64,000 bases of DNA from Halorussus sp. MSC15.2 (lineage in GTDB: Archaea; Halobacteriota; Halobacteria; Halobacteriales; Haladaptataceae), in NCBI RefSeq assembly GCF_010747475.1, contig NZ_VSLZ01000003.1:186001-250000 (forward strand), written 5' to 3'. The number at the start of each line of letters is the position of its first letter. Position 1 is the stretch's first letter. The notes below the pieces were generated by a model. That model ran no database searches, was not told the DNA's origin, and worked only from the letters and a program-made list of their open reading frames with translations. This document shows positions 6,436-35,735 of this stretch, piece after piece. The translations under genes were made by a program, and so were the position numbers.

Positions 6436-8051
6436 TTACTCCTCGCCGAACCGGTCTTCGACGGCCTGCCTGTCGATTTTCTGCGGGCCGGACGTGGGCA
6501 TCTCGTCGACGAACGCCAGATGGCGTGGCCGTTTGAACCGGGCGAGTTTTCCGTCGAGGAACTCGGTGAGTTCCGCCAGCGTCAGCGATTCGTCGCCCTG
6601 TACCACCGCCTTCCCGACCTGTCCCCACTGGTCGTCCGGGACCGGAACCACGACGACCTCCTCGACTTTGGGGTGGTCGGCGATTCGGTCCTCGACCGCG
6701 GCGGGGTAGACGTTCTCGCCGCCCGAGACGTACATGTTCTTCTTTCGGCCCTCGATGTAGTAGTAGCCGTCCTCGTCGCGCCGGGCCAAGTCGCCGGTCG
6801 AGACCCACCCGTCGCCGAACGTCTCCTCGGTCTCCGACTGGTTGCGCCAGTACCCGGCGGCGGCGTGGGGACTCGACAGTTCGAGTTCGCCGATTCCGCC
6901 CGCTGGCAGTTCCTCGCCGTCGTCGTTCGACCGTGTCGAACTGCTCGACGAGCGTCGCTCGTCGGCGTCCACGACGCGGGCGTCCACGTGCATCGCGGGC
7001 ACGCCCACGCTGTCGGCCTTCTCGCGGGGCCAGCCCTCGGGCATCGTGAAGTTGTTCGGGCCGCACTCGGTGAGACCGTACCCCTGCGAGAGGTCCACGC
7101 CCCTGTCCCACCACGCCTCCATCACCGACTCGCGGCAGGGGCCGCCGCCCGACTTGGCGAACCGGAGCGCCGAGAGGTCGGTCGTCTCCCAGTCGTCGTG
7201 GGTCGCCATCATCCGGAGGACCGCCGGGACCGCCACGAGGACGGTCGCCCCCTCTGACTCCGCGAAGCGGAGGACCTCGCCGGGTTCGAACTCTCGGGCG
7301 AGGACGACAGTGCCGCCGAGGTGGAACAGCGGCACGGTGACGACGTTCCAGCCGCCGGTGTGGAACATCGGAAACACCATGGGCGTCACGTCCTCCGGGC
7401 GCAGTCCCCACGCCGTGATGGTGTTGAACGAGTTCCACAGAATCGAGCCGTGAGTCAGGACCGTCTCCTTCGGGACGCCGGTCGAACCGCCGGTGTGGAG
7501 GAACAGGTGCGGGTCGTCCATCGACAGGTCGGCGGTCTCGACCGGCGAGTCGTCCGCGGGGAGCGCGTCGGCCCACGCCTCCCGGCCGAGGTCGTCTCGC
7601 TCGGCGTTCGCGTCGGCGTCCTCGGCGAGAGCGCGACCACCGAGCAGTCGAACTTCCGGGCGTCGTGGGCCAGCACGTCGGCCGCGAGGGCCGCGAAGGG
7701 GGCTTCGACCACGAGCAGGGCCGGGTCCACGTCGTTCAGCATCTCGACCAGTTCGCCCGCCGCGAGGCGGTGCGAGAGGGGCGCGAGGACACCGCCGGTC
7801 TTCGCGGTGGCGAAGAACAGGTCCACGAGTTCCGGCCGGTTCCGCGAGAGGACCGCCACGCGCTCGCCTTCCGCGACGCCCTCCTCCCGGAGGAGTCGGG
7901 CGACGCGATTCGCTCGGCGGTCCAACTCGGCGTACGTGAACCGCTCGCCGGTCGTCGCGTCCACTACCCCGACCGAGTCGGGCGAGAGACTCGCGCGCCT
8001 CTCGCTCCACGCGCCGACCCAGTCGTAGGGCCGCTCGTGGTGGCTAAACAT
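6436..8051 (-). pseudogene. acyl-CoA ligase (AMP-binding), frameshifted, with an in-frame hairpin insertion
   Basis: An ANL-superfamily ligase that activates a carboxylic acid to acyl-AMP and then acyl-CoA. The 5' part starts MFSHHERPYDWVGAWSERRA and runs in one frame to DCSVVAL. The rest, beginning AEDADANAERDDLG, is one frame over, with the break near 7635. The second part holds the P-loop FLHTGGSTGVPKE, the motifs YGLTECGP and GWVSTGDLARRDEDGYYY, and the catalytic Lys region near DEMPTSGPQKIDRQ. The span is one base short. A Ser/Arg-rich insert (6922-6964) interrupts the usual VVD-DDGEELPAG linker. The gene start overlaps the end of the upstream hydrolase gene by 8 nt, so the two form an operon. 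Confidence 0.85.
6925..6964. repeat. two-hairpin palindromic insertion inside the ligase gene
   Basis: Two perfect inverted repeats lie in series: GTTCGAC-CGT-GTCGAAC (6925-6941; 7-bp stem, 3-nt loop) and CGACGAGC-GTC-GCTCGTCG (6946-6964; 8-bp stem, 3-nt loop). On the minus strand they encode ERRSSSSSTRSN, about a dozen residues that interrupt a normally continuous linker of AMP-binding enzymes. Confidence 0.7.
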
Positions 8052-8892
8052 CGGCGAGGAACTCCGCGAGGCGGTCGTTGACGGTCTCGGCCTGTTCGAT
8101 GAAAAAGAGGTGCGACCCGCCCTCGAACCGGGCGAGTTCGGCGCTCGGCAGTCGCTCGTACAGCAGGTCGGCGTTCTCGACGGGAAGCACCCGGTCGTCG
8201 GTACCGTGGGCGACGAGTGCGGGTACGTCCACGTCGCCGAGTCGGTCGCTCGAATCGAACGCCACGACCCCGGCGGCCTGCGCGTCGCGGGCGGCGTCGC
8301 TCGCATCGCCCGCCAACCGCCAGTCCACGATGTCCGAAATCAGGTCGTCGTTCTCCTCCCAGAACGCGTCGGTCATCGCGGGTTTCATCTTGTGGCGGAT
8401 GGCCTCGCGTTCGTCCGCGTCCTCGGGCACCGAGAACATCCGAGCCTGCGTCTCCTCGGGAATCTCGACCGCCTCATCGCCGCCGTGGCTGGTGCAGAGC
8501 AGACCGAGCGACGCCGCCCGGTCGTAGTCGAGCGCGTACTGCTGGGCTATCATCCCGCCCATGCTCGCGCCGACGACGTGGGCGCGCTCCGCGCCGACCG
8601 CCTCGAGGACCGCGTCGAGGTCGCTCGCCATCTCCTCGACGGTGTACGGCCCGTCGGGTTCGTCGGAGTCACCGGTGCCGCGGTTGTCCCAGACCACGAC
8701 CTGGTAGCCCTCCGCTGCGAGTCGGTCGCGCTGCCAGCGCCACATCCACCGACCGTAACCCAGTCCCTCCACGAGCGCGACGGTTTCGGCGTCACGCCCG
8801 CGCTCCTCCTGACTCCCGTCCGAGTCGGGACTGTCGGCCGGGTCGGTGGTCTCGTAGTAGAGCGAGACCCCGTCGTTGTCCGCGTAAGGCAT
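8044..8892 (-). CDS. alpha/beta hydrolase
   Basis: A 282-residue alpha/beta-fold hydrolase. The nucleophile elbow is GASMGG, the acid lies in HGTDDRVLP and the catalytic His in GGSHLFF near the C-terminus. The oxyanion-region signature is VVVWDNRGTGDS. Start ATG 8892 (MPYADNDGVSLYYE) fits the family; a start ten codons upstream would overlap the divergent promoter. The acidic DSPDSDGSQEERGRD segment near residue 30 is a loop extension. It overlaps the acyl-CoA ligase start by 8 nt, suggesting ester or thioester metabolism, but the substrate is unknown. Confidence 0.85.
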   Translation of the reverse strand: MPYADNDGVSLYYETTDPADSPDSDGSQEERGRDAETVALVEGLGYGRWMWRWQRDRLAAEGYQVVVWDNRGTGDSDEPDGPYTVEEMASDLDAVLEAVGAERAHVVGASMGGMIAQQYALDYDRAASLGLLCTSHGGDEAVEIPEETQARMFSVPEDADEREAIRHKMKPAMTDAFWEENDDLISDIVDWRLAGDASDAARDAQAAGVVAFDSSDRLGDVDVPALVAHGTDDRVLPVENADLLYERLPSAELARFEGGSHLFFIEQAETVNDRLAEFLADV

Positions 8893-8980
8893 GGCTGAAT
8901 CCACGGACGAACCCGCCTTCAAATCCCTGTTTCACATGTTAACCCTCGGATTGATTCGCCGGGCGACGCGACCATCTCCC

Positions 8981-9376
8981 ATGCCAGTCGCAACGCCGAA
9001 CGACACCGCAGAAGCCACCCTGACGGTCACCGAAGACACCATCGACGCCTACGCCGACCTGACGGGCGACGACAACCCAATCCACCGCGACGAGGCGTAC
9101 GCCGCCGAGACGTTCTTCGGCGGCCGGGTCGCCCACGGGATGCTCTCGGCGGGCGTCGTCAGCGCGGCGCTCGCGGACCTGCCGGGCGACATCGTCTACC
9201 TCTCGCAGGATGTGGACTTCGAGAACCCGGTTCGACCGGGACAGACCGTGACCGCGACGGTGACCGTCGAGGAGGAGTTGGGCGACGATAGGCTTCGGGT
9301 CGAGACGGTGGCGGAGACCGAAGACGAGCGAGTTCTCTCGGGCGAGGCCGTCGTACTGTCGCTCCCGCACGAGTAG
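8981..9376 (+). CDS. MaoC-family (R)-specific enoyl-CoA hydratase/dehydratase
   Basis: A single hot-dog domain of 131 residues. The hydratase-2 motif is DLTGDDNPIHRDEAYA with the catalytic Asp and His, followed by GGRVAHGML. It hydrates 2-enoyl-CoA to (R)-3-hydroxyacyl-CoA, as in fatty acid turnover or PHA supply. An in-frame ATG lies 30 codons upstream at 8891, inside the divergent gene start; ATG 8981 (MPVATPND) is preferred because the fold begins there. It is divergent from the hydrolase/ligase pair, which handles related substrates. Confidence 0.87.
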   Translation: MPVATPNDTAEATLTVTEDTIDAYADLTGDDNPIHRDEAYAAETFFGGRVAHGMLSAGVVSAALADLPGDIVYLSQDVDFENPVRPGQTVTATVTVEEELGDDRLRVETVAETEDERVLSGEAVVLSLPHE

Positions 9377-9397
9377 TCGGGGCGAATCGAAATACAC

Positions 9398-10630
9398 TTG
9401 TCACGTCAGAATCTCAACCATGCTGTGCCATCTATTCACACTCCATCGTCGGCGCTGGGACTGTTGGCGTGTCTCCTGATAGTGACGGCGACGATTCCGG
9501 CGGCGGCCTCCCATCCTCGGGTCAAGTTCTCGAATCCGGGGTACGAGGCCGACGCGGGCGACATCGTCTCGATTCCGGTCGAACTCCGGAGCACGGACTC
9601 GGCGACGGTCGTCGTTCGGGGGTACCGCGTTTGGCCCAGTACGACCAAGACGCGAACGTACCTCGCGAACGCGTCCGTCAGCGACGCGAACGGCGACGGC
9701 CGCGCGACTCTCCTGCTGGACACCCACGACGTGACGTGGCGCGCCCGCGGCCCGGACGAGGTGAACGTCACCGTCCGTATGGCGTCGGACGGCCCGCTCG
9801 ACGCGCACCACTACGACCTCTACGGCGTGGTCGAGAACGAGACGGGCTACGACCGCACGAGCGAGTCGAACCTCGACCTCTCCAAACCCGAAGCGGAGTC
9901 CCTGAAGACGTGGGTCGGTCCCTCGTCGGTCGAGGTGAGCGCGCAGACGCTCTCCACGTCGGCACCCCCGGCGCGGAACGTCGAGCGGAGTTCGGTCGCG
10001 CTCAGAAACGGGACGCTGGTGTTCGACCTCCGAACGTCGGGTCTCGGGGGTGCGGTCGAGTCCGGTCCGAACGCGACGGCCCGGTTCTTCGACGTTCTCG
10101 ACGGACGGCAGGCGAACCTGAGCGTCGTCCAGACGAACCCGGGACCGTCGCACCCGCCCAAGGAACTCCATCTCGGACCGAACTCGACCCGCGTCGTCGC
10201 CGACGGGTTCAACCAGAGCTACTACCTCGCGGTCGACCTCTCGGCGGTGAACGTCACCGGCGGTCCGAACGGTGAACTCCGGCGGGGCGACGAGTACCTC
10301 GCTAACTTCTCGCTCCGGAGAGCAAACTCGACGGACTCGAATCGCACGTGGTCCGTGGAGACGAAGTTCGCCGTCGGCGAAGCGGTACGTTCGACGGAGG
10401 GTGACGCGCCCGCGGAGACGACCGCCGGGCGGACGGAGACCGAGACGACGACCGAATCGAGTCGGCCGACGACCGCGGAAGCCGAAACGGAACCGACCGA
10501 CTCCACGACGGACGCGCAGTCGACGGCGACGGCGCGAGGCGGGACGCCAGACGGTATCGTCCCCGGATTCGGTGTCGGCGCGGCGCTGGTCGCACTGCTC
10601 GCCGGTCTGGCGTTCGCCGGAAGAAAATAA
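9398..10630 (+). CDS. exported surface glycoprotein-like protein with PGF-CTERM anchor
   Basis: A Sec-type signal (LGLLACLLIVTATIPAAAS) is followed by beta-rich repeats with many N-x-S/T sequons, a Thr/Glu-rich stalk (TETETTTESSRPTTAEAETE) and a C-terminal PGF motif (IVPGFGVGAALVALLAGLA) with a basic tail. That is the haloarchaeal sorting signal cleaved and lipidated by archaeosortase ArtA. There is no in-frame ATG near the start; TTG 9398 or GTG 9425 are the candidates, and GTG 9425 would place the hydrophobic core better. The role on the cell surface is unknown. Confidence 0.78.
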   Translation: MSRQNLNHAVPSIHTPSSALGLLACLLIVTATIPAAASHPRVKFSNPGYEADAGDIVSIPVELRSTDSATVVVRGYRVWPSTTKTRTYLANASVSDANGDGRATLLLDTHDVTWRARGPDEVNVTVRMASDGPLDAHHYDLYGVVENETGYDRTSESNLDLSKPEAESLKTWVGPSSVEVSAQTLSTSAPPARNVERSSVALRNGTLVFDLRTSGLGGAVESGPNATARFFDVLDGRQANLSVVQTNPGPSHPPKELHLGPNSTRVVADGFNQSYYLAVDLSAVNVTGGPNGELRRGDEYLANFSLRRANSTDSNRTWSVETKFAVGEAVRSTEGDAPAETTAGRTETETTTESSRPTTAEAETEPTDSTTDAQSTATARGGTPDGIVPGFGVGAALVALLAGLAFAGRK

Positions 10631-10641
10631 CGGCGCCGCGT

Positions 10642-12099
10642 TCAGTACGACTTCGCGAAGTAGGCCGTCTCCTCGGCCTCGTCGCCGCAGACGCCGCACT
10701 CGTCGCCGATGGGTTCCTCGTCGCGGTCCATCGGGACCATCACGATTTCCGCGGAAATCTCCTCCTTGATGACCTGCTCGCAGGCTTGGTCGCCGCACCA
10801 CGGCGTCTTGACGTAGCCGCCGTGCTGGCCGATGGTGCCCAGAATCTCGGCGGTCTCGTAGGCCTCGCGGACGTTCTCTTCGAGGTTCTGTTCGGCGGTC
10901 TCGTAGAGTTTGTCGGTCACGTCCTCGAAGTGGTCCTCGACGGTCTCGTCGATGTCCTCGCGGTCCTCCACGGTGTCCTCGCCGTCGGGGCGGTGGACGA
11001 CCGTGACCTCGCGGTCCTCGACCTCGTTGGGACCGATTTCGAGTCGGACGGGGACGCCCTTCAGCTCCCACTCGTTGAACTTGAACCCGGGGTTGCGCTC
11101 GTCGCGGTCGTCGAGTTCGACGCGGATGTCCTCGGCTTCGAGGTCGTCGGCCACGCCCTCGGCGTACTCCAGCACTTCGTCGCGGTTGTCCTCGTTCCAG
11201 ATGGGGACGATGACGACCTGCTCGGGCGCGATTTTCGGGGGCACCACGAGTCCCTGGTCGTCGGAGTGGGTCATGATGAGCGCGCCCAGCGCGCGCCACG
11301 AGAGACCCCACGAGGTGGTGTGGGCGACGCGCTCCTCCTCGTCCTCGTCGGTGTAGGTCAGGTCGTAGGCCTCCGCGAAGCCCTGTCCGAGGTAGTGGGA
11401 GGTCCCGCCCTGCACGGACTTGCCGTCGGGCATCAGCGCCTCGACGGTCGTGGTGGTGTGCGCGCCGGGGAACTTGTCGTGTTCGGGCTTGCGACCCCGG
11501 AGGACCGGGATGGCCAGCACGTCCTCGTAGAGGTTCTGGTACTGGTCGAGGCGGGTCATCGTCTCGTCCCACGCCTCGTCCTCGGACTCGTGGGCGGTGT
11601 GGCCCTCCTGCCAGAGGAACTCTTTGGTACGGAAGAACGGCTTGGTCTCGGTGGCCTCCCACCGGATGACGCTACACCACTGGTTCAGTCGCAGGGGCAG
11701 GTCGCGGTGGCTCCGGACCCAGTTGCTCATGAACGGCGTGATGATGGACTCGCTGGTGGGCCGGAACGCGAGTCGCTCTTCGAGTTCGTCGTGGCCGCCG
11801 TGGGTCACCCACGCCACCTCGGGGTCGAACCCTTCCACGATGTCGCTCTCGCGTTCGAGGTAGCTCTCGGGGATGAGCGCGGGGAAGTAGGCGTTCTGCG
11901 CCCCGGTCTGCTTGAACCACTTGTCGAGGTGGTCCTGCACGCCCTCCCAAAGGGCGTACCCGCGGGGCCGGGTGACGATGAACCCGCCCATGGGCGCGTA
12001 GTCGGCGAGTTCGGCCTTCTGGACGACCTCCGCGTACCAGTCGCCGGGGTTGTACTCCTTTCGCTCGGTGATGCCGAGTTCCTGCTCGTCGTCGCTCAT
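10642..12099 (-). CDS. proS: prolyl-tRNA synthetase, archaeal/eukaryotic type
   Basis: A class II aminoacyl-tRNA synthetase that charges tRNA-Pro. Over 485 residues it shows motif 2 (CSVIRWEATETKPFFRTKEF), motif 3 with TSWGLSWRALGALIMTHSDDQG, an anticodon-binding domain and a C-terminal zinc-type domain (CGDQACEQ ... CGVCGDEAEETAYFAKSY ending in the conserved Tyr). No bacterial editing insertion is present. Start ATG 12099 (MSDDEQELGITERKEYN) is supported by a TATA box at 12124-12131 with leaderless spacing. Confidence 0.95.
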   Translation of the reverse strand: MSDDEQELGITERKEYNPGDWYAEVVQKAELADYAPMGGFIVTRPRGYALWEGVQDHLDKWFKQTGAQNAYFPALIPESYLERESDIVEGFDPEVAWVTHGGHDELEERLAFRPTSESIITPFMSNWVRSHRDLPLRLNQWCSVIRWEATETKPFFRTKEFLWQEGHTAHESEDEAWDETMTRLDQYQNLYEDVLAIPVLRGRKPEHDKFPGAHTTTTVEALMPDGKSVQGGTSHYLGQGFAEAYDLTYTDEDEEERVAHTTSWGLSWRALGALIMTHSDDQGLVVPPKIAPEQVVIVPIWNEDNRDEVLEYAEGVADDLEAEDIRVELDDRDERNPGFKFNEWELKGVPVRLEIGPNEVEDREVTVVHRPDGEDTVEDREDIDETVEDHFEDVTDKLYETAEQNLEENVREAYETAEILGTIGQHGGYVKTPWCGDQACEQVIKEEISAEIVMVPMDRDEEPIGDECGVCGDEAEETAYFAKSY

Positions 12100-12123
12100 T
12101 GGGTACTGGTTTCTTCGATGCGG

Positions 12124-12131
12124 TCTTAAAG
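12124..12131 (-). promoter_or_regulatory. TATA box of proS
   Basis: The minus strand reads CTTTAAGA, 25-32 nt upstream of the proS ATG. This fits a leaderless transcript and supports the chosen start over an upstream in-frame ATG. Confidence 0.6.
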
Positions 12132-12170
12132 GCGATGAACCTGTGGTAACTGTTCGGAGGCGGCGGGCGG

Positions 12171-13370
12171 TCACCAAGCCTCGCGGAGGACCGCCTCCAC
12201 GTCCTCGGCGCTCGCGTCCAGTCCGGCGGGCGCGCGCTCCATCGGGTGGTCGTCGGCGACGAACGCGGCTATCGCCGGGAGGTCTTCCTCCCGGGTCTCG
12301 GGGAGGTCCCGCAGGCGCGTCGGCGCGTCGAGCGCGTCGCGCAACTCAGCGACCGCTTCGACGACGGCGTCGGCCACCTCCTCGTCCGAGCGGTCGGTCG
12401 GGTCGATGCCCAGTCCGTTCGCCAGCAGGTCGCGACCGGCGTCCACCTCGCCGAAGAGATACCGGAGGACGTGCGGGACGACGGCCGCGTGGACCGCGCC
12501 CTGCTGGACGTCGTACCGGCGGGCGAACCCGTGACCGAAGGCGTGGACCACCGAGACTTTGCGTTCGAGTTGGACGAGCAGCGTCCCGACCACGGCCCGG
12601 TCCATCGCCGCAGAGTCCGCGGAGGACTCGCCGACGACTCGGGGGAGCGCGTCGCTCAGCAGGCGGAGTCCGTGAACCGCCGTCGCGTCGCTGACGGGGT
12701 TCGCGTCGCGGGCGTACGGCGTCTCGACTCCCTTGTCGAACCCGTTCATCGCCGACCCCGCGAGCGCGCCCGTCGGCGTGGTCTCGAACAGCGCCGGGTC
12801 CGCGAAGTCGGCTATCGGCATCGCCGACCCGCGGGCGCTCACCGGTTGGCCCGTCGGCGACTCCGCGGCCGACAAGACCTCCATGGACCCGCCGCTCGAC
12901 ACGTCCGCGCCCGCGAACGTCGTCGGGACGACGACCACCGGCGGTCGCTCGTCGGCCGAGTCCGGCGGCCGGACCTCGCCGTCGCGTGCCTCCTCGCGGA
13001 GGTCGTCGAGCGAGCGACCGTCGGGCGCGAACACGCTCGCCTGCCGAGCGACGTCGAGGCTACTGCCGCCGCCGACGCCGACGACCACGTCCGCGTCCGC
13101 CTCGCGCATCGCGTCTACGACCTCGAACGCCGACTCGGCCTGTTTCTCCGGCGTGGTCTCGTCGTAGACGCCCGCAAGTCGGTCGCCGAGTCCGTCCTCG
13201 ATTGGGTCCATGAGGTCGTCGTTGGCCCCGACGTTTGACCCGCAGACGACGAGCGCGCGGTCGAGGTCGTGCTCCCCGAGGTACTCGCCCAGACGGGCCG
13301 CGCAGCCGCGGCCGTAGACGATGTCGCACCCGCGGTACTCGTACTCGAAGGCGTCGGCTATCGGAAGCAT
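12171..13370 (-). CDS. iron-containing alcohol dehydrogenase family protein
   Basis: A 399-residue member of the metal-dependent group III alcohol dehydrogenase/dehydroquinate-synthase fold. It has the nucleotide motif VVGVGGGSSLDVARQ near residue 100 and VVVPTTFAGADVSSGGS. Metal-ligand regions are MNGFDKGVE, HAFGHGFARRYDVQQGAVHA and PHVL. It would oxidise an alcohol or reduce an aldehyde with NAD(P)H in the cytoplasm. Substrate is not inferable. It lies 71 nt upstream of proS on the same strand. Confidence 0.83.
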   Translation of the reverse strand: MLPIADAFEYEYRGCDIVYGRGCAARLGEYLGEHDLDRALVVCGSNVGANDDLMDPIEDGLGDRLAGVYDETTPEKQAESAFEVVDAMREADADVVVGVGGGSSLDVARQASVFAPDGRSLDDLREEARDGEVRPPDSADERPPVVVVPTTFAGADVSSGGSMEVLSAAESPTGQPVSARGSAMPIADFADPALFETTPTGALAGSAMNGFDKGVETPYARDANPVSDATAVHGLRLLSDALPRVVGESSADSAAMDRAVVGTLLVQLERKVSVVHAFGHGFARRYDVQQGAVHAAVVPHVLRYLFGEVDAGRDLLANGLGIDPTDRSDEEVADAVVEAVAELRDALDAPTRLRDLPETREEDLPAIAAFVADDHPMERAPAGLDASAEDVEAVLREAW

Positions 13371-13415
13371 GGTCCCGAATTACAGCGGCGTCCCAATGAA
13401 GGTGGGGCCGCGGCG

Positions 13416-13901
13416 CTACCGTCGGACCGCGTCCAGTTCCCTCACGCCGGTCTCCACGTCCCACTCGCGCAGTTCGTCGCCCTCGGCGTCGAAGACGAAC
13501 TCCCCGGCGAACCGCTCGCCGTCGAGCAGGTGCGGAAGCCAGTAGCGGTCGTCCTCCCACATCTCGTCGTAGGGGACCGCGTCGTAGTCGTACCACTCGG
13601 GGTCGGCCTCCGGGGACGCCTCGGGCACGCCGTCGAACGCCTCGGCCCGGAAGACGTGGACGAACATCCGGGGGTCCTCGCCGAACACGAACCGGAACTC
13701 GCCGACCTTCTCCGGGTCGCGGGGCGTCACGCCGATTTCCTCCTCGACTTCGCGCACGACGCACTCGCCGGGAGTCTCGCCGTCTTCGACCTTCCCGCCG
13801 GGACCGACCAGTTTGCCCTCGCCCAGACCGCGCTTCTTCCGGATGAGCAGGACCTCCTCGGCGTCGGGCCGCAGGAGGTAACACAGCGTCGCGGGTTGCA
13901 T
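13416..13901 (-). CDS. Nudix hydrolase, MTH1/8-oxo-dGTPase-like
   Basis: A 161-residue Nudix protein. The full Nudix box is present as GGKVEDGETPGECVVREVEEEIGV at about residues 35-58 (G-x5-E-x7-REVEEE-x-G). The KKRGLGEGKLVGPGG preceding it is typical of MTH1-like enzymes that clean oxidised purine dNTPs. The start MQPATLCYLLRP is clear. A role in sanitising the nucleotide pool is inferred from family resemblance. Confidence 0.87.
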   Translation of the reverse strand: MQPATLCYLLRPDAEEVLLIRKKRGLGEGKLVGPGGKVEDGETPGECVVREVEEEIGVTPRDPEKVGEFRFVFGEDPRMFVHVFRAEAFDGVPEASPEADPEWYDYDAVPYDEMWEDDRYWLPHLLDGERFAGEFVFDAEGDELREWDVETGVRELDAVRR

Positions 13902-14002
13902 ACGCCGAGCGTCGGACCCCTGCGGGTTAGACCTGTCGGAATTTCATCATTCGGACTCGACCCGCCGGTACGGCTAACTCGTCGGCTACCGTCTCCCGGT
14001 CC

Positions 14003-14464: not shown

Positions 14465-14513
14465 GTTGCGCGCTCCGCAGGATTGATTAGCGTCGGGAAT
14501 CCAACACGAGCCG

Positions 14514-15032: not shown

Positions 15033-15083
15033 CCCGGCCACCCGAGTTTTCCCTCCGTCGGTCGTATCACCGCCGATTCGACG

Positions 15084-19434: not shown

Positions 19435-19636
19435 AGAGAGGCGTTCCCGTTCAGTAGACGCCGGCCGGTAGCGCCTCTGTCCGGCACTCGCGCCGGGCGG
19501 ACCACCGGCGCTGACGGCGCGAGCCTGCTTCTCCGCGGTTTCGCGGTGACGGTGCAGTCGGCGGACGTACCCGGGCCGAGTCGCGACCTATCGCCGACCG
19601 ACTTAACACGGAGAGTGGCATAGTTCGGGCGAGCGT
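19435..19636. repeat. intergenic region with GC-rich inverted repeats
   Basis: Contains an 8-bp inverted repeat CTCGCGCC (19487-19494) / GGCGCGAG (19516-19523) enclosing further GGCGC-rich sequence, and a short CCGCG-GTTT-CGCGG hairpin just after (around 19532-19546). A weak A/T box (CTTAACAC, near 19600) precedes the next gene. The hairpins may help end the aCPSF1 transcript or be remnants of the palindromic elements seen elsewhere in the window. Confidence 0.4.
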
Positions 19637-20350
19637 ATGAGGGCTGTTACCGTCACTCTCGCAGTACTGCTGGTCGCGGCGGTCGGCGTCGCGCCCGCAC
19701 CCGCGCTCGGGCACCGGGATTCGGGCGTCTCCTGCGCGTACGACGAATCGCGGCTGGAGACCTACCAACCGGAGACCGTTATCGACCACCTCGCAGTGAA
19801 GCCGACGGCCAGTTACGCCGCCGTCTACTCGTCGCCCGAGCGCCCGACCGACGTCTACGTCTACTTCCTGCGGTACACCCATCAGGAAGGCGTGACCGCC
19901 GTGGACAGCCACACCGACGACCACGAACCGGTGTACGTGCTCGTGGACGACCAAACCGGCGAGGTCCGGCGCGTCGTCTTCTCGGCGTCCCACTACGTCA
20001 AGGAGACCGGGACGCCGTCGAGTCTCCCGATGAACGGTTCGCACGTCAAACTCCGGGTGGTCGCGCCGTGGCATCAGTACGTTCCGACCACCCAGTCCGG
20101 TTCCCGCGTTCGGTTGAAGAACTACTGCGCGGCGGTCGAGCGCTGGCACGCGAACGGGTGGGACGTGTCGGTCGAAGCCACGACCGACCCGTGGACGATG
20201 CGCCACCGCGATAGCTGGTGGGCGGACGACTCCGTCGGAGCGTCGATGGCCGAGCGGTACTGGGACGCCCGGCGGTCGCTCGGTGATGCGGTCTCGGACC
20301 TCAACGTGAGTTTCCCCGCGCGACAGTCGGGGCAGAAATCGACTGGCTGA
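19637..20350 (+). CDS. secreted protein of unknown function
   Basis: A 237-residue protein with a Sec signal (MRAVTVTLAVLLVAAVGVAPAP, cleavage likely near ALG). The mature part has two Cys (VSCAYDES, KNYCAAVERWH) that could pair, and a conserved-looking VYVYFLRYTHQEGVTAVDSH and HWHANGW-type aromatic region. No family is recognised. It has no transmembrane anchor at the C-terminus. Confidence 0.72.
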   Translation: MRAVTVTLAVLLVAAVGVAPAPALGHRDSGVSCAYDESRLETYQPETVIDHLAVKPTASYAAVYSSPERPTDVYVYFLRYTHQEGVTAVDSHTDDHEPVYVLVDDQTGEVRRVVFSASHYVKETGTPSSLPMNGSHVKLRVVAPWHQYVPTTQSGSRVRLKNYCAAVERWHANGWDVSVEATTDPWTMRHRDSWWADDSVGASMAERYWDARRSLGDAVSDLNVSFPARQSGQKSTG

Positions 20351-20401
20351 CGAGACGAGGGAGACGCGGCGGGAAACGCGTCCGTCTTCGAGGTCGGCCT
20401 G

Positions 20402-27362: not shown

Positions 27363-27389
27363 AGTATGTGAAACTGTGGCAAGTGGTGG

Positions 27390-29471: not shown

Positions 29472-29478
29472 GTCTGTG

Positions 29479-30393
29479 TCACCTCTGGGTCCGCGCTCGC
29501 GTCAACCGCCGCGTGTTCTCCGTGACTGTTTCGAGAGACTCGGTCTCTCGGTCCTCGGAGGAAGACTCCGAGACGCCGTCCATTATCGCGCTCCCGACGA
29601 GCAGGCCGTCGGCCCCCGCCTCGACCATCCGGCGGGCGTCGCCGGGCGAACCGATACCGCTCTCCGCGACGAGGGTCACGTCGCCGGGCGCTTGGGGCGC
29701 GACCGTCTCGAAGGTTTCGAGGTCCACCTCCAACTTCGCCAAGTCGCGGTTGTTCACGCCGATTAGCTCCGCGCCCGCCGCGACCGCTCGCTCCAACTCC
29801 GCGGCGTCGTGGACCTCCACGAGCGGTTGGAACCCGCGCGCCTCCGCGGCCGCCACGAGGTCGGCGAGGTCATCATCTTCTCGCGGGCAGGGAGACGGCT
29901 CTGCCGTCTCTTCCGAGGCGGTTACACCGCCTCGCGGCCCGCTCGAATGGTCCGCGGAGCTCCGCTCCGCGCTACCCACGAACCGGGCGATGAGCAGGAC
30001 CACGTCGGCCGCCACGGTGTCGAGTTGGCTCTCGCGCACGACGAAGTCCTTCCGGAGGACCGGCACGTCCACGGTCTCGCGGATTCGCCGCAGGTTCTCG
30101 GGCGACCCCCCGAAGTGGTCCGGTTCGGTCAGCACCGAGAGCGCGGCCGCGCCGCCATCCACCATGCGCTCGGCCAGTTCCACGGGGTCGGCGTCTCGGG
30201 TCCCGTCGGTCGTCGGACTCGTGGGCTTCACCTCTGCGATGACCGGGACGCGTCCGTCGGTCTCCGCCCGCGAGAGGGCCGCGGGGAGCGACCGAGCATC
30301 GACCGAGAGCGGCCCGCCCTCCGGGTCGCCGCGGGCCTCCGCGGACCGGAGGATGGACGCGACCGCGGGCGCGAGTTCCTCGCTATCGTTCAT
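29479..30393 (-). CDS. trpC: indole-3-glycerol phosphate synthase with two palindromic insertions
   Basis: Converts the CdRP intermediate to indole-3-glycerol phosphate. Barrel motifs are [42 protein letters not shown] and [12 protein letters not shown]. At 304 residues it is longer than the usual 255 or so because of two inserts. Residues about 141-173 ([16 protein letters not shown]...) sit between LLIARFVG and DDLADLV. Residues about 275-289 ([15 protein letters not shown]) lie near the C-terminus. Both map onto perfect hairpins in the DNA. It is the first gene of the trp unit, with its promoter just upstream. Confidence 0.92.
29532..29572. repeat. two-hairpin insertion near the 3' end of trpC
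   Basis: CGAGAGAC-TCG-GTCTCTCG (29532-29550; 8-bp stem, 3-nt loop) is followed by CTCGGAG-GAAGA-CTCCGAG (29554-29572; 7-bp stem, 5-nt loop). The segment encodes [15 protein letters not shown], extra to the normal TrpC end. Confidence 0.65.
29892..29971. repeat. three-hairpin insertion in the middle of trpC
   Basis: Three perfect hairpins lie in tandem: GAGACGGC-TCT-GCCGTCTC (29892-29910), CGAGGCGGT-TAC-ACCGCCTCG (29914-29934) and CGCGGAGC-TCC-GCTCCGCG (29953-29971). Stems are 8-9 bp and every loop is 3 nt. The insert stays in frame and adds about 33 residues between strand and helix of the barrel. Confidence 0.75.
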
Positions 30394-30396
30394 CGT

Positions 30397-30426
30397 TGTG
30401 CATCAACGGACGGAATTGTACATAAG
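30397..30426 (-). promoter_or_regulatory. trp promoter with TGTACA/TGTGCA boxes
   Basis: The minus strand has an A/T box (CCTTATGTAC, 30418-30427) 25-34 nt before the trpC ATG. It overlaps the palindrome TGTACA (30417-30422), with a related TGTGCA at 30397-30402. TGTACA is the TRP box bound by TrpY in Methanothermobacter. Whether a similar factor acts here is speculation. Confidence 0.4.
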
Positions 30427-30519
30427 GCTTGCGTCTACCCGGACCCCGGTCGGGGAACGGCGAAACCCCGAATCAGAATTAGAACCGCCGGGACTGCGGA
30501 ACGCTCGGAGAACAGGGAG

Positions 30520-31089
30520 TCACGCCGACGAATTCGAAATCGACGTCGGGTCGGCGGTCGGCGACGGGAGGTCGGCCATCTCGCTCGCGTGTCGGCGTCG
30601 CAGCGACTCGTACCGCGCGACGAACCGGGCGAACGCCTCGTTCGACCGGCGCTCCTCCGCCGACGTCACGGCGCGGAGTACCCGGTACTTCTCCGCGAGC
30701 GCCGCGCAGGTCCGGACCGCCGGGTCGGCCGAGGAGAGCGCCGCGAACCGGTCGATAGTCGCGCGAAACTGGTCGCGGGAGACGGGTTTTCGGAGGTACA
30801 CGTCCACGGGCACGTCCGCGAGGTCGACGGTCGGGGTCGCGCTGGTGACGAATCCGGTGAAGCGGTTCTCGTCGGCGAGACGCGCGACCAACTCGCGTCC
30901 GGTCGCGTCGGGCAGTCGCCGCTCGGTCAACACCGCGTCGAACTCCTCGCCGACCGTGGCGAGCGCCGCCTCGGCGTCCGCGACGGCCGACACCGTTCCG
31001 ACCTCCGAACACCACTCGTCGTAGAGCGCGCGGAGCGTCGGGTCGGCGTCGACGAGTAGAACTGTCGGTCGGGATTCACGTCCACCCAT
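30520..31089 (-). CDS. HalX-type response regulator with degenerate receiver
   Basis: A 189-residue protein with an N-terminal receiver fold (PTVLLVDADPTLRALYDEW) and a C-terminal HalX-like helical domain (YRVLRAVTSAEERRSNEAF). The phospho-acceptor position is Glu56 in DAVLTERRLPD where Asp is expected, and one of the two metal-binding acidic residues is Ala15 (VDAD). Thr82/Ser83 and Lys101 (LRKPVSR) are kept. Phosphorylation is therefore unlikely, and Glu may mimic the active state. Start ATG 31089 has a TTTATC box about 20-25 nt upstream. It is divergent from the winged-helix gene. Confidence 0.83.
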   Translation of the reverse strand: MGGRESRPTVLLVDADPTLRALYDEWCSEVGTVSAVADAEAALATVGEEFDAVLTERRLPDATGRELVARLADENRFTGFVTSATPTVDLADVPVDVYLRKPVSRDQFRATIDRFAALSSADPAVRTCAALAEKYRVLRAVTSAEERRSNEAFARFVARYESLRRRHASEMADLPSPTADPTSISNSSA

Positions 31090-31189
31090 AATTCCGACCA
31101 CGCGGTCTCCGAATGATAAACCCCGGCGGCTGTTCCCACCTCCGGGAATCACCTTACAACATTTGGGTGACAGAAAATAAGGTCCCGAC

Positions 31190-31525
31190 GTGGCCGAAGA
31201 AGGTACCCCCGAGGCTGTCTTAGAACTGTTGGACGGGTACACCTGCGCGATTCTGTCCGCGGCGAGTTCGCGTCCGGTGTCCGCCAAGTCGATACACGAG
31301 GCGTTCGGCGTCCCCGACTCGACGCTGTACCGCCGTCTGCCGCGACTCGTCGAGCGCGGGCTACTGACCGAGCGGACTCGCATCGACGACGACGGCAATC
31401 ACTACCGAGTGTACGAGTCCCGCATCGAGCGAGTCGTCTTCGAGGTCGCCGACGGCACGGCGACCGCCCGGGTCTCGGTGGTAGACGACGACCGGACTCG
31501 GGTCGAGACGTGGCGGTTCGACTGA
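31190..31525 (+). CDS. winged-helix DNA-binding protein
   Basis: A 111-residue regulator. The N-terminal helix-turn-helix is ILSAASSRPVSAKSIHEAFGVPDSTLYRRLPRL (core SIHEAFGVPDSTLYRRL) with the wing ERTRIDDDGNHYRVYES. The C-terminal half is a small beta domain ending VETWRFD. It resembles the ArsR/HTH_20 haloarchaeal regulators often paired with bat- or HalX-type sensors. The start is GTG 31190. The 100-bp divergent spacer with the degenerate response regulator suggests shared control. Confidence 0.8.
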   Translation: MAEEGTPEAVLELLDGYTCAILSAASSRPVSAKSIHEAFGVPDSTLYRRLPRLVERGLLTERTRIDDDGNHYRVYESRIERVVFEVADGTATARVSVVDDDRTRVETWRFD

Positions 31526-31572
31526 CGGACGCTCGCGGAATCTTCAAGTCCGGACCGGCCGAATCGCAGGGT

Positions 31573-32064
31573 ATGGACGACACTGTCGAGACCGAGGACC
31601 CGAGCGACGTCGCCGGTATCTTCGCACGCGAATCGTCGTATCTGGAGCGGTACGTCCAGTTGGGAGTCGCCAGCGGACGCGTCCTCAGCGTCTCGTTCCC
31701 GGACACGCCCGACGAGCAGGCCCAGACCGACCACGACCTGCTCGACCGCATCTTCGACTACCTCGACGGCGTCGAGGAGGACGACTTCTCGGACGTGACC
31801 GTCGCGCTCACGGTGCCGACCGACCAGCGCCGCGTGCTGGAACGCGTCCGTGGGATTCCATACGGGGACCAGATAGACGTCGAGACGCTGGCCCGGATGA
31901 CCAGCGGCGTGGACCACACCGACGAGGACGACCTGAACACGGTCCGAACCGCGCTCGACCGCAACCCAGCGCCGCTGCTGATTCCGGACCACCGAGTCCG
32001 CGACGGCCCGAGCGCCGCGCCGCCCGCGGTCGAACAGAAACTCCGGTCGCTAGAGGGACTGTAA
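31573..32064 (+). CDS. alkyltransferase-like (MGMT-family) protein with Asp in place of the acceptor Cys
   Basis: A 163-residue protein. The C-terminal 95 residues follow the O6-alkylguanine-DNA alkyltransferase DNA-binding fold (VALTVPTDQRRVLERVRGIPYGD, TVRTALDRNPAPLLIPDHRV). The active-site PCHRV becomes PDHRV with Asp139, so it cannot accept an alkyl group. Alkyltransferase-like proteins bind damaged bases and hand them to excision repair, and that role is inferred. Start ATG 31573 is chosen because it follows the preceding stop and begins the acidic MDDTVETEDPSD. Confidence 0.82.
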   Translation: MDDTVETEDPSDVAGIFARESSYLERYVQLGVASGRVLSVSFPDTPDEQAQTDHDLLDRIFDYLDGVEEDDFSDVTVALTVPTDQRRVLERVRGIPYGDQIDVETLARMTSGVDHTDEDDLNTVRTALDRNPAPLLIPDHRVRDGPSAAPPAVEQKLRSLEGL

Positions 32065-32250
32065 CCTCGGCCGCTCGCGGTTCGACTCTCGCATAACCCT
32101 CGTTCTAGTTGATTCCCCAACATTTCTACTTCCGAACTCAGAGTCGGCCACTCCTTCGGAAAGTTAGTTTCTCCCCGCTGGCGGGACACGGGACCGGATG
32201 CGACGCGCGTCTGACGCAACGTTTACTTGTTCGCGCACAATTACCCGCCC

Positions 32251-33192
32251 ATGACAAGCCTCGCGGAGGCCTACGAGGAGAACGTCGGCGAGGTGGGGAA
32301 CGTCCGACTGCTCTATCTCGGGGTCGGTCTGTTCGCCGTCGGGGTGTCGCTCGTCGTGTTCGCGATTCTGCTCTCCACGACGGACGTCCACTCCGCGTTC
32401 GGTCTCGGCACGCTCGGTGCCCGGGAAGTCGCGGGCGTCCTCGCCGGACTCGGCGTCCCGGCGGTGTTCGTCGGCATCTTCAGCGTCCTGCCGGCCAGCC
32501 AGCGCGTCAGGGCCGCGGCCGCCATCGGGTCGGGCGTCTCGTTGCTCGGCGTCGCGCTGTTCACCCACGCCTACCCGAAGCACTGGGCCGGGTACGGCCG
32601 ACAGTTGACCCTGCCGGTCGTCGCCGTCTACTTCTTCGGCGCGCTGGTCACGTTCGGGTGCCTGTTCGTCGCCGTGGTCAACTTCAAGACGCGCAACGAC
32701 CCCGGCGGGACCGTCACGCTCGAAGTGAGCCACGACGGCGAGGTCCGCACCGTCGAGGTCCGGAAGGGCGAACTGGACGAGTTCGACGACTTGGACGACC
32801 TGCGCGCGCTCCGGACCGGACTGGCCGACTCGGCCGCCGGGGACCCCGACAACGACCCCGAACCGGTCCCGACCGGGATGGGCGGCGTCGGCTTCTTCGG
32901 CGACACGCCCGACGGCGAGACGCCGACGCAGACGAACCAACCGGGACGAGGAGCGCCCGGCCGGGGAAGCGCGACCAGCGACGGCGGGACCGCGGCCGAC
33001 GACGACATCCGGTCGCCGCTGGACGACGCCGACGCGCCCGACCGGCCCCACCCGACCACCGACGCCTACTGCGGCAACTGCCAGCACTTCCAGTACGTCC
33101 GGACCAACGAGGGGATGCAACCCCACTGCGGCTTCTACGGCCGGACGATGAGCGACATGGACGCCTGCGAGGAGTGGGAACCGAACAGTTGA
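32251..33192 (+). CDS. membrane protein with C-terminal zinc-binding Cys cluster
   Basis: A 313-residue protein with four transmembrane helices in the first 140 residues (YLGVGLFAVGVSLVVFAILL, REVAGVLAGLGVPAVFVGIF, AAAIGSGVSLLGVALF, VVAVYFFGALVTFGCLFVAV). A short beta segment (TVTLEVSHDGEVRTVEV), a long disordered Asp/Gly/Pro linker and a terminal Cys cluster follow (YCGNCQHF, HCGFYG, ACEEW). The last is a rubredoxin-like zinc knuckle. The ATG at 32251 has TTTACTT about 30 nt upstream. The function is unknown. Confidence 0.8.
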   Translation: MTSLAEAYEENVGEVGNVRLLYLGVGLFAVGVSLVVFAILLSTTDVHSAFGLGTLGAREVAGVLAGLGVPAVFVGIFSVLPASQRVRAAAAIGSGVSLLGVALFTHAYPKHWAGYGRQLTLPVVAVYFFGALVTFGCLFVAVVNFKTRNDPGGTVTLEVSHDGEVRTVEVRKGELDEFDDLDDLRALRTGLADSAAGDPDNDPEPVPTGMGGVGFFGDTPDGETPTQTNQPGRGAPGRGSATSDGGTAADDDIRSPLDDADAPDRPHPTTDAYCGNCQHFQYVRTNEGMQPHCGFYGRTMSDMDACEEWEPNS

Positions 33193-33269
33193 CGCCGCGG
33201 CCGCGGGCCGACGCGACCCCGAACGTGTTCCGGAAAAGATAGTTACCGGCCGAGTGTCGATTGTCGCAC

Positions 33270-33434
33270 ATGGTCGAAATCAGCGCGAGCAGACTCGGCG
33301 CTCTGGGCGTTCTGGGGGTCCTCGGCGTCTGGGCAAACGAACCGGCGCTGTTCGCACTCTTCGCGTTGTTCGCGCTGTTCGGGTCCGACCGGACGCTGCG
33401 CGTCCCAACGCCCCGCGACGGAGGCGAGAGCTAG
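33270..33434 (+). CDS. 54-residue small membrane protein
   Basis: A short ORF starting MVEISASRLGALGVLGVLGV and containing LFALFALFALFG, a threefold LFA repeat that forms a second hydrophobic helix, then a basic-polar tail ending PRDGGES. An AAAAGATAG A/T box sits about 27 nt before the ATG. The stop overlaps the convergent Mut7-C gene by 4 nt (33431-33434). Similar two-helix microproteins occur in haloarchaea; the function is unknown. Confidence 0.6.
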   Translation: MVEISASRLGALGVLGVLGVWANEPALFALFALFALFGSDRTLRVPTPRDGGES

Positions 33435-33949
33435 AGGTCCGAGAGCGTCTCTTCGACCGACGCCCAGTGACTCCCCTTCCAGAAGTGCTGGTCGCACTCG
33501 GGACACCGCCAGACCCGGAACTCGTCGGTGTCGGGCGCGTACTCGGGCGTCTCTGCGTCCGCCGCGAGGGCCACCAGCTCCGCGTTGCACTCGGCGCACC
33601 GCGTCGGTTCCGAGAGTTCGAGTTCGAAGCCCGCGTCGGCGAGTTCCCGGAGTTGGTCGGTCACTGGTTTCGTCGTCAGTAGGAGTCCGTCGGCGCGCTC
33701 GGCCAACTCCGCGTCCCGAGTCACGAGCAGTCGCCCTTCGGATTCTGCGAGAGCCAGCAGGTCGTCGTCGTCCTCGACGCCTCCCGGGTCGTCGCATCGC
33801 TCGTCCCCGCTCGTCCGTTCCGAGGCGCTTCGCGCCTCGCGGTCCAGCGCGTACGCCGCGTCGTACCCGCACATCCGGAGGTACGTCGCCAGTTTGCCCA
33901 GCATCGCGTCGAGCAGGAGCGCCGACTCCGCGGGCGTGCGCGTCGGCAT
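33431..33949 (-). CDS. Mut7-C RNase-domain protein with zinc ribbon and palindromic insertion
   Basis: A 172-residue PIN-fold Mut7-C protein. The conserved start LLLDAMLGKLATYLRMCGYD holds the first catalytic Asp, and LLVTRDAELAER holds further acidic residues. The C-terminal zinc ribbon is CAECNAEL ... CPECDQHFWKGSHW. Residues about 37-58 (REARSASERTSGDERCDD) are an insert coinciding with a DNA hairpin. It likely acts as an RNase or RNA-binding protein. It is transcribed after polX, with 1 nt between that stop and this gene's upstream boundary. Confidence 0.83.
   Translation of the reverse strand: MPTRTPAESALLLDAMLGKLATYLRMCGYDAAYALDREARSASERTSGDERCDDPGGVEDDDDLLALAESEGRLLVTRDAELAERADGLLLTTKPVTDQLRELADAGFELELSEPTRCAECNAELVALAADAETPEYAPDTDEFRVWRCPECDQHFWKGSHWASVEETLSDL
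33798..33839. repeat. palindromic insertion in the Mut7-C gene
   Basis: CGAGGCGC-TTC-GCGCCTCG (33821-33839; 8-bp stem, 3-nt loop), preceded by two direct copies of CGCTCGTCC (33798-33806, 33808-33816). The outer sequence TTCCGAGGCG...CGCCTCGCGG is shared with the second hairpin of the trpC insert, which points to a common origin. Confidence 0.65.
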
Positions 33950-33950
33950 C

Positions 33951-35735
33951 TCAGTCGAGGAACTCCCGCACGCCGTCGGCGTCGCGGGCGTTCAGGATAT
34001 CGTCGGCCTGCGCCCACCCGCGCCGGGCGGTGTGGACGCCGTACCGGACGTGTTCGTACTCCGCCGGGGAGTGGGCGTCGGTGTCGATGGCGATGGTCGC
34101 GCCCTCCTCGACGGCCTGCTTGACCGCGCTCCCCCAGAGGTCGAGGCGATAGGGACTGCTGTTGACTTCGAGGGCGGTACCGTGGTCGGCGGCGGCGCGC
34201 GCCACCACGTCGATGTCCAACTCGACGCCGGGGCGCTGGTGTATCATCCGCCCGGTCGGGTGGCCGACGATGTCCACGCTCGGGTGTTCGATGGCGGCGA
34301 CGATGCGGTCGGTCGCGTCGCCCTCCAGCGCGCTGTGGGGCGAGGCGACCACGCAGTCGAGGTCCGCCAGCAGGTCGTCGCCGACGCTGATGTCGCCGTC
34401 CCTGTCGATGTTGGCCTCGACGCCCGCGAAGACGGTGATGGGAAGGTCGTCGGCCATCGCCCGAATCTCGGCCAGTTGCTCGCGCAACTCCTCGTCGTCC
34501 AGTCCGACGCCGCCGACCATTCCCGGTCCGGTCGCGTGGTCGGCGACGCTGATGTAGTCGTGGCCGAACTCGGCCGCGGCCTCGGCCATCTCCGCGACGC
34601 TGAACCCGCCGTCGGACCACTCGGTGTGGAGGTGGAGGTCGCCCCGGATTTCGCCCTCCTCGACGAGGTCCGGCAGGTCGCCGTCCGCGGCGGCGGCTAT
34701 CTCCCCGCGGTCTTCGCGCATCTCGGGTTCGATGTACGGCAGGCCGACCGCTTCGTACATCCCCGCCTCGGTCTCGCCCGCGACGCGTTCGCCGACTCGC
34801 TGGCCCGAATCGGGGTCTTCGACTTCCGAGACGTCGTCGGACGAGTCCGACGAGCCGTCCGAGCCGAGCTCGGAGACGTCGAACGCGCCGTACTCGTTTA
34901 TCTTGTATCCGCGGTCGATGGCGTAGTTCCGCAACCGGATGTTGTGCTCTTTGCTCCCGGTGAAGTACTGGATGGCGCTCCCGAACTCCTCGGGCACGAC
35001 GACCCGGAGGTCCACGCGCTGGCCGTCCGAGCGCACGCTGGCCTTGTCGGTCCCGGCCTCGATTACCTCGTCGGCCTCCTCCCACTCCGTGAACGCGTCG
35101 ATGACCGCCTGTCGGTCGTCGCTGCCGACCAGCACGTCGATGTCGCCGATGGTCGGTTTCCACCGCCGGAGCGACCCCGCGAGTTCGCACCGGCCCGCCT
35201 CCGGAATCGCCTCGAAGAACTCCAAGGCGGCCTCGCCCACGGGTCGGGCGTCGCCGAGCAGCGACCGGCCCTGCGACTCGCGGGCGAACTGGATACCGTC
35301 GAGGATGTTCTGCTCGGTCTTCTCGCCGAACCCGGAGACCTCCCGAATCTGCCCCTCGCGGGCGGCGTGTTCGAGGTCGTCTAAGTCCCGCACGTCGAGC
35401 GCCCGGTAGAGGTCGCCCACCGTCTTGGGACCGACGCCCTCGACGCTGGTGAGTTCGGCCATCTCGACCGGCATCTGCTCGCGCTCGTCCTCCAACTGCT
35501 CGAACGTGCCCGTCTCGACCGCCTCTACGACTTTCTTCGAGATAGACTCGCCCACGTCCTGAATCCGCTGGACCGCCTCGGGACCCTCGGCGGCCAACTC
35601 CTCGATGGCCTCCGGGGAGTCGCGGATGCTCTCGGCCGCCCGCTCGTAGACCTTCGGCTTGTAGTCCACGCCCTGCGCGGACAGCAGGTCGGCGTACTCT
35701 TCGAGTAAGTCGGCGATTTCGGCGTTGCGTGTCAT
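33951..35735 (-). CDS. polX: family X DNA polymerase with PHP nuclease domain
   Basis: A 594-residue PolX. The N-terminal helix-hairpin-helix 8-kDa-like region starts MTRNAEIADLLEEYADLL. Further HhH motifs are VEGVGPKTVGDLY and VSGFGEKTEQNIL, and the palm has the catalytic GDIDVLV and RVDLRVVVP. The C-terminal PHP domain has DLHLHTEWSDGG, HDYISVADHATG, EANIDRDGD, HPTGR and DTDAHSP. It acts in gap-filling base-excision repair, and the PHP domain adds 3'-5' exonuclease or AP endonuclease activity. A Ser/Asp insert (LGSDGSSDSSDDVSE) after FDVSE is a translated palindromic element. Confidence 0.93.
   Translation of the reverse strand: MTRNAEIADLLEEYADLLSAQGVDYKPKVYERAAESIRDSPEAIEELAAEGPEAVQRIQDVGESISKKVVEAVETGTFEQLEDEREQMPVEMAELTSVEGVGPKTVGDLYRALDVRDLDDLEHAAREGQIREVSGFGEKTEQNILDGIQFARESQGRSLLGDARPVGEAALEFFEAIPEAGRCELAGSLRRWKPTIGDIDVLVGSDDRQAVIDAFTEWEEADEVIEAGTDKASVRSDGQRVDLRVVVPEEFGSAIQYFTGSKEHNIRLRNYAIDRGYKINEYGAFDVSELGSDGSSDSSDDVSEVEDPDSGQRVGERVAGETEAGMYEAVGLPYIEPEMREDRGEIAAAADGDLPDLVEEGEIRGDLHLHTEWSDGGFSVAEMAEAAAEFGHDYISVADHATGPGMVGGVGLDDEELREQLAEIRAMADDLPITVFAGVEANIDRDGDISVGDDLLADLDCVVASPHSALEGDATDRIVAAIEHPSVDIVGHPTGRMIHQRPGVELDIDVVARAAADHGTALEVNSSPYRLDLWGSAVKQAVEEGATIAIDTDAHSPAEYEHVRYGVHTARRGWAQADDILNARDADGVREFLD
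34828..34881. repeat. palindromic insertion in polX flanked by a 9-bp direct repeat
   Basis: TCGTCGGA-CGAG-TCCGACGA (34834-34853; 8-bp stem, 4-nt loop) and TCCGAGC-CGA-GCTCGGA (34858-34874; 7-bp stem, 3-nt loop). GAGACGTCG occurs at 34828-34836 and again at 34873-34881, exactly 45 bp apart, as a target-site duplication would. At the protein level DVSE is duplicated around the insert. Confidence 0.7.

Follow-up and report, generated by a model that had tools for sequence, protein, structure and literature searches.

How do short, perfect DNA hairpins come to lie, in frame, inside the coding sequences of conserved enzymes? The question is raised by a 64,000-nucleotide stretch of the genome of Halorussus sp. 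MSC15.2 (positions 186001-250000 of contig NZ_VSLZ01000003.1, contig C3 of genome G000 in our set; hereinafter the window), in which the initial annotation described five hairpin inserts in four genes, namely a ligase gene, trpC (two sites), a Mut7-C gene and polX, and took them for one family of translated palindromic elements. Our analysis leads us to conclude that these inserts are very probably non-autonomous mobile palindromes of two recurring families, whose genic copies persist where their reading yields an acidic peptide that is tolerated. The families recur, their copies are present or absent at exact sites, nest in one another, show a reading frame bias and carry paired changes in their stems; that they are mobile, we infer.

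Hairpin inserts among related genomes

All five inserts were confirmed at their listed positions and keep the reading frame, and each is missing from the same gene in at least one relative; the Pfam families of the host proteins (IGPS for trpC, AMP-binding ligase, PolX-type polymerase and Mut7-C RNase) agree with the identities originally proposed. The extents of two inserts had to be redrawn: the Mut7-C insert measures about 60 bp, only its second hairpin having been delineated before, and the insert at trpC site 1 is a composite. In the closest comparison genome, G004 (about 93-95% identity to G000 across aligned blocks), the 42-bp ligase insert is missing, as it is in G007, and the ligase gene of G004 instead carries a 111-bp hairpin insert about 120 bp away from the site filled in G000. 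Of the 19 other aligned trpC genes, 18 are empty at site 1, where G000 has a net gain over G004; these include that of G004 and one (L018) with 4 extra residues at this place, and the remaining gene, from G003, contains a shorter insert. Site 2 of trpC is variable, with a differing insert in G004 and some other genomes and none in further relatives, and the Mut7-C and polX inserts are common to G000 and G004 and absent in G002.

Over 464 kb aligned between G000 and G004, we collected indels of 18-160 columns with at least 78% identity in both 50-column flanks, which yielded 41 clean cases after exclusion of 13 longer ones. Stems of at least 7 bp are present in 14 of the 41 (random segments: mean 1.8, maximum 6 in 200 draws) and two hairpins in 9 (random mean 0.5, maximum 4). 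Net length divisible by three is found in 12 of the 16 indels with stems of at least 6 bp and in 23 of the 25 without, and provides no evidence because the non-hairpin indels show it as well. In the window itself, perfect stems of at least 7 bp with 3-nt loops number 22, compared with a mean of 13.6 in Markov-5 sequence, and close hairpin pairs number 5, compared with 1-4; these counts are only mildly above chance, so that simple hairpin statistics are no proof of elements. The proof is comparative: hairpins are concentrated in the indels between sister genomes. The variable presence of inserts, for which the initial annotation proposed a test, is evident from these indels and from two Natrinema strains considered below.

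Among the G000/G004 indels, those at window-scale positions 62331, 197368, 24510 and 28255 are polymorphic hairpin inserts that take two or more additional forms, and inserts of this kind that are not clearly covered by the two family models introduced in the next section probably represent additional families. A stretch of about 0.74 kb (window positions ~19636-20387) is also present in G000 and missing in G004.

Two families of elements in the order Halobacteriales

The notion of recurring translated elements is upheld by these data, with the amendment that there are at least two families instead of one and that they are spread across the order Halobacteriales. The consensus of family 1, derived from polymorphic inserts, is CTCGCGG-loop-CCGCTCG-linker-TCCGAGG-loop-CCTCGC, with a core of 43-55 bp in most copies; the outer sequence TTCCGAGGCG...CGCCTCGCGG, which had been recognized as common to trpC and Mut7-C, is the second half of this element. 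An exact pattern that contains just one arm per stem, CCGCTCGN{2,6}TCCGAGG, yields 166 matches across the 21 genomes (all but one have some), compared with 15 for the reversed control. The family 1 model, R1, was built from 19 of the 23 copies of a looser pattern (four were left out as misaligned or having long loops), and matches 23 of the 30 loci retrieved by the exact pattern and none of the other 7. Copies in related genomes, for which the initial annotation proposed a search, were found for both families: R1 and the family 2 model, R3, each match 20 of the 21 genomes. The R1 counts range from at least 4 to at least 58 per genome, these being lower bounds with at most 150 candidates scored in each, and the R3 counts from 1 to 30. 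The sole genome without elements, G013, is small and incomplete. In a phylum-wide sample of 148 genomes, R1 was found in 19 of the 24 members of Halobacteriales and, in the sorted listing of hits, in none of the 124 others; in a sample of the order alone, it matched 122 of 146 genomes, which represent 45 of the 57 genera, and the genomes of the order that lack it include four of about 1 Mb along with others of normal size. Three R1 units are arranged in tandem at one locus (L089).

The consensus of family 2 is CG-N6-loop-N6-CG-AGC(A)-second hairpin-GACGCC. A structural scan of 1.24 Mb detected 9 such structures at 10,125 CG[AT]GC sites, including the copies that prompted the idea and copies shared by G000 and G004, compared with 11 at about 157,000 sites of eight other tags. 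The elements of the window (Table 1) divide between the two models, R1 covering trpC site 1 and Mut7-C, and R3 covering the ligase and polX inserts, a further element at 4975-5020 and, weakly, trpC site 2.

Family 2 copies were noticed in several genes that encode an LFxN stretch just upstream (L234:1411-1546 and L261 from G016, L220, L229, L230 and L232); in G016, three 45-bp R3 units in tandem are read as 15-residue repeats. The intergenic copies of G006, G016, G002 and G000 lie within larger repeats, up to 200-300 bp long, and such mosaic multi-hairpin repeats with near-identical family 2 cores (L247-L254 in G006, L256-L259 in G016, L262-L263 in G002 and L264-L265 on contig C5 of G000) resemble a haloarchaeal counterpart of the bacterial interspersed mosaic elements. 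Family 2 modules may originate in these larger repeats or be hosted by them as well.

Table 1. Hairpin elements in the window (positions are those of the window; scores are for models R1 and R3)
Feature	Host gene	Position	Strand	Score or remark
Family 2 two-hairpin element	AMP-binding ligase (6436-8010, -)	6919-6964	-	R3 55.3 bits
trpC site 1 insert, composite of family 1 material	trpC (29479-30393, -)	29872-29974	+	net 99 bp
Full family 1 element inside trpC site 1	trpC	29931-29972	+	R1 50.0 bits; in frame
trpC site 2 insert near C-terminus, weak family 2 match	trpC	29532-29577	+	R3 27.1 bits, E 0.0019
Family 1 element	Mut7-C (33431-33949, -)	33781-33840	+	R1 46.0 bits; in frame
Family 2 element	polX (33951-35984, -)	34835-34880	+	R3 43.5 bits; in frame
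Further family 2 element, outside the earlier list		4975-5020	+	R3 40.8 bits; also in G004
Possible decayed family 2 element, uncertain		42993-43033	+	R3 22.4 bits, E 0.026

The element at 4975-5020 is probably intergenic; the likely start of a gene for an FAD-dependent oxidoreductase, whose protein MTEQFDVAIAGAGPAGAQ begins at ~5199, follows about 180 bp downstream. Its assignment to the N-terminus of this oxidoreductase was considered and rejected given that start and the lack of codon support in any frame across the element. No Rfam family matches the window at gathering scores. An open reading frame of 690 aa (40655-42727) contains internal repeats of about 265 bp at 41300-42620, as seen in offset alignments.

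Reading frame, charge and host proteins

For family 1, we examined 89 copies, mostly strong matches: 75 rows from 84 hits (5 duplicates and 2 weak or partial rows dropped, 3 tandem hits merged), 10 rows from 14 hits (3 dropped, 2 merged) and 4 window hits with E <0.001. A copy was called genic by the codon score on both flanks, the element itself being excluded, and 64 of the 89 are genic on both sides, the other 25 being edge, intergenic or unclear cases. All 64 genic copies have the same orientation and 62 share one frame, with the translation SEARSASDxSSGDEPRD; at a looser and a stricter threshold, the copies in this main frame number 66 and 57, with the same two exceptions. The Mut7-C copy is translated as REARSASERTSGDERCDDPGG. 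This bias is not due to stop codons because, in each of five of the six frames, 82-87 of the 87 copies are open (39 in the sixth). The main frame is the only one with a net negative charge, -0.60, compared with +2.0 to +4.5 in the other five.

Similar results come from two further sets. Among 80 trp loci that were not chosen for elements (80 kept out of 153 from a trpC query, in which one search peptide of six touches the window's insert), there are 32 R1 hits. With a somewhat relaxed threshold, 26 of these are in frame, namely 23 in the main frame, 2 in phase 0 and 1 in phase 2, and 6 received no call. Of the R1 hits from the phylum sample taken in their own genomes (20 of 23 fetched), 10 are in the main frame, 2 in another phase and 8 without a call. 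The 10 host genes encode ordinary proteins such as carbamoyl-phosphate synthase, SAICAR synthetase, biotin ligase, a LarC-type nickel insertion protein, a MutS-like protein, a methyltransferase and others.

Family 2 follows a different rule. Of 59 R3 copies (40 plus 19, the latter picked mostly because several scored identically), 26 were called genic and 33, trpC site 2 (whose right flank scores low) and the 4975-5020 element among these, received no call. The genic copies are read either in one sense phase (AVEHGSTSSRTQSDDA type; 21 of 26), as in the ligase gene, where the element is translated in frame as DERRSSSSSTRSND, or in one antisense phase (5 of 26), as in polX, where the translation is DVSELGSDGSSDSSDD. 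The sense frame is on average the least positive of the six, and the antisense frame is not, so charge alone does not explain the frames of family 2. In a predicted structure of TrpC, the barrel is well modeled (mean pLDDT 79.2), and residues 142-172 (the site 1 insert) and 275-278 (within site 2) have values below 50. The inserts are read as an additional acidic and probably floppy loop of the protein.

These observations can be accommodated by a scheme in which the unit, two hairpins and a short linker of ~45-54 bp, would enter both genes and intergenic DNA without obvious target duplication. A genic copy would be kept when its orientation and frame yield an acidic, serine-rich, presumably disordered peptide that is tolerated in an exposed loop, and family 1 copies in the other frames, which encode arginine-rich peptides, would be purged. 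The frame bias would then be a product of selection acting on inserted copies, without any aiming of the insertion, and the movement itself could be due to an enzyme that acts in trans on hairpin, probably single-stranded, DNA. Conceivably, the insertion itself could be aimed at, or orientated by, translated loops, such that transposition would keep inserting and deleting short acidic loops in core enzymes throughout the order, a possibility that we consider unlikely.

Turnover, origin and known counterparts

The gain and loss of elements can be followed at the trp genes. Mapped onto a quick tree built from trpC of 80 genomes, where a site counts as filled if it is at least 8 residues above the median length, the changes number at least 11 at a loop of trpA (15 of 58 filled), 9 at trpB site i (9 of 57) and 8 at trpB site ii (8 of 64); some of the fillings at these sites are not clear R1 copies. 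In trpB, moreover, a 54-bp R1 copy distinguishes two strains that bear the name Natrinema hispanicum, with flanks about 92-93% identical. The trpA loop deserves particular attention because the initial annotation considered that the same inserts at the same sites in distant genera would indicate old protein loops, and family 1 indeed occupies one place in trpA in several genera. The occupancy is patchy, with at least 11 changes for 15 filled copies, and the versions of the element differ across haloarchaea; this fits a permissive insertion hot spot that was repeatedly filled or emptied and not a single old loop. Selected protein loops in the form of acidic linkers, useful in high salt, that were inherited and lost in some lineages would agree with the trpA distribution and with the acidic, polar peptide. 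The identical type of peptide in unrelated genes, the nested copies, the differing versions at one site and the equality of changes and filled copies at both trpB sites all speak against this explanation, which is strongly disfavoured and in our assessment extremely improbable.

Nesting is seen in L300, L312, L322, L360 and also L141 (in L285 the ends are ambiguous), with the junction CGAG^TAGCG...GA^CGG, that is, entry at CGAG^CGG of the outer copy. In L300, L312, L322 and L360, no target duplication was seen by eye in comparison with the outer consensus.

The stems themselves vary in a concerted manner. The R1 alignment comprises 84 rows, of which 78 are distinct; 98.6% of its cells pair and 103 cells are changed on both sides, compared with just 5 that are changed on a single side (0 of 500 shuffles). 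In the R3 alignment (10 rows), 94.0% pair with 47 double changes. These figures are inflated because structure guided the choice or fitting of the models and alignments. That one-sided (G-T) steps are so few suggests that the arms pair, or are copied, as DNA, and perfect stems might be maintained if one arm serves as the template of the other or if transposition recurs. Such a trace is also what would be expected if the hairpins arose on the spot by template switching during replication, with the frame kept by selection and no mobile element involved, and some of the polymorphic hairpin inserts do fit neither R1 nor R3. The linkers, tails and peptide are nonetheless conserved in unrelated genes across the order, and this shared consensus needs a common source, so that template switching as the sole origin is disfavoured and appears highly unlikely, even if it may be the way in which stems are rewritten.

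With regard to the identity of the mobile element, two known types of repeats have to be considered (the statements attributed to publications here and below rest on the accessible parts of these papers). The repetitive extragenic palindromic (REP) sequences with GTAG or CGTC tags are small hairpins, often dimers, some of which are intragenic, including RPE-4 and RPE-6 of Rickettsia conorii that are counted as CGTC repeats (PMC3733652). Our elements could be members of these REP superfamilies, moved by RAYT-like Y1 transposases, with some copies in genes. In 45 of 55 R3 copies, GACG follows the second hairpin, which in the reverse reading is a CGTC at its foot, a count inflated because the R3 model includes the GACGCC tail; R1 starts with TAG in 28 and with GTAG in 12 of the 89 copies; and the nested cases lack target duplication. 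The GTAG tag of R1 is partial, and no match to Y1_Tnp (PF01797, RAYT-type) was found in 9 of the 20 carrier genomes, including G003 with its at least 58 R1 hits. Furthermore, REPs are mostly intergenic and the GTAG ones are RAYT-linked, whereas the R1 copies, mostly strong hits, are for the most part genic (64 of 89). CGTC REPs have stems of 8-9 bp with loops of 4-5 nt; the second stems of R3 are 7-10 bp long with loops mostly of 3 nt. Membership in the REP superfamilies seems doubtful to us; the CGTC-like foot of R3 and the partial TAG foot of R1, as sequence resemblances, are a lead and not a proof of kinship. A Y1 (RAYT/IS200) transposase was also considered as the mover of the elements and rejected, its distribution being patchy and not tracking that of the elements.

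The second type is haloarchaeal. In Haloquadratum walsbyi, possibly moving 52-bp terminal-only palindrome-associated transposable elements (PATEs) show no target duplication, and SMRs target other elements (PMC3119063); the elements described here might be similar remnants, that is, fused and still moving ends of IS605-type transposons. TnpB (PF07282) is present in all 20 carrier genomes and not in the element-free G013, a weak correlation because G013 is small and incomplete. Conversely, the density of R1 motifs at 34 Y1/TnpB loci does not exceed that in other sequence (4 per 106 kb compared with 22 per 400 kb), with two R1 hits at E <0.001 within these loci. We consider this origin rather unlikely. 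Judged from the published description and not from sequence, PATEs and SMRs nevertheless appear to be the nearest haloarchaeal precedent, being transposase-free, with palindromic or inverted repeats, without target duplication and inserted into other elements; translated copies in host proteins are not mentioned in the accessible part of PMC3119063.

The interpretation of the inserts as mobile palindromes retained by selection on their peptide has to be set against several observations that speak against it. In addition to the lack of Y1_Tnp in many carriers and of R1 enrichment at Y1/TnpB loci, these are the frame exceptions of family 1, namely L070 and L107:746 among the 64 genic copies, 3 of 26 trp-locus copies (nested, decayed or partial hits) and 2 of 12 own-genome copies (weak hits with unchanged orientation), all of these exceptions being weak, nested, partial or doubtful matches, and the antisense frame of family 2, whose average peptide is not acidic. 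Where related genomes carry copies at the same site, these do not count as separate events, the stem-pairing figures are inflated as noted above, and the nested junctions were judged against the consensus and not against an empty allele. Finally, most of the indels do not tell whether a copy was gained or lost, and the differences are between species or named strains, no movement having been observed.

Mobile palindromes of this kind were likened from the outset to the Rickettsia palindromic elements, and this conceptual likeness held: the latter are palindromic, multi-copy elements of several families that are inserted in frame in unrelated genes, each with a conserved peptide (PMC10969869). 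The elements described here share the palindromic structure, the multiple copies and the in-frame insertion in unrelated genes, and R1 matches the use of a single frame with a conserved peptide, whereas R3 uses two frames. Further differences are in size and host: the Rickettsia elements are ~150 bp long and bacterial (PMC10969869), whereas those described here have ~45-54 bp with two short hairpins and are archaeal and order-wide. Miniature inverted-repeat transposable elements (MITEs), which are non-autonomous and able to fuse to reading frames (PMC10969869), carry inverted repeats at their ends and often duplicate the target (PMC3119063); no duplication was seen in the nested cases here. 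By analogy, our elements appear to work like the Rickettsia palindromic elements and intragenic REPs. In the open-access literature covered, we found no description of intragenic palindromic elements in haloarchaea; the accessible part of the Haloferax volcanii genome paper uses 'palindromic' only for CRISPR (PMC2841640).

Selfish DNA inside proteins is already known from Rickettsia, with parallels in bacterial REPs. With two families across an archaeal order and a nearly absolute frame rule for family 1, the tolerance and movement of such insertions become testable in cultured haloarchaea, for example, Halorussus and Natrinema; the filled and empty versions of TrpA, TrpB and TrpC are natural experiments. 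For annotators and structural biologists, the elements are a warning that an insert found in a conserved haloarchaeal enzyme can be DNA that arrived recently and not a functional loop. Should insertion turn out to be aimed at translated loops, the elements would be a continuing generator of protein surface in one archaeal order.

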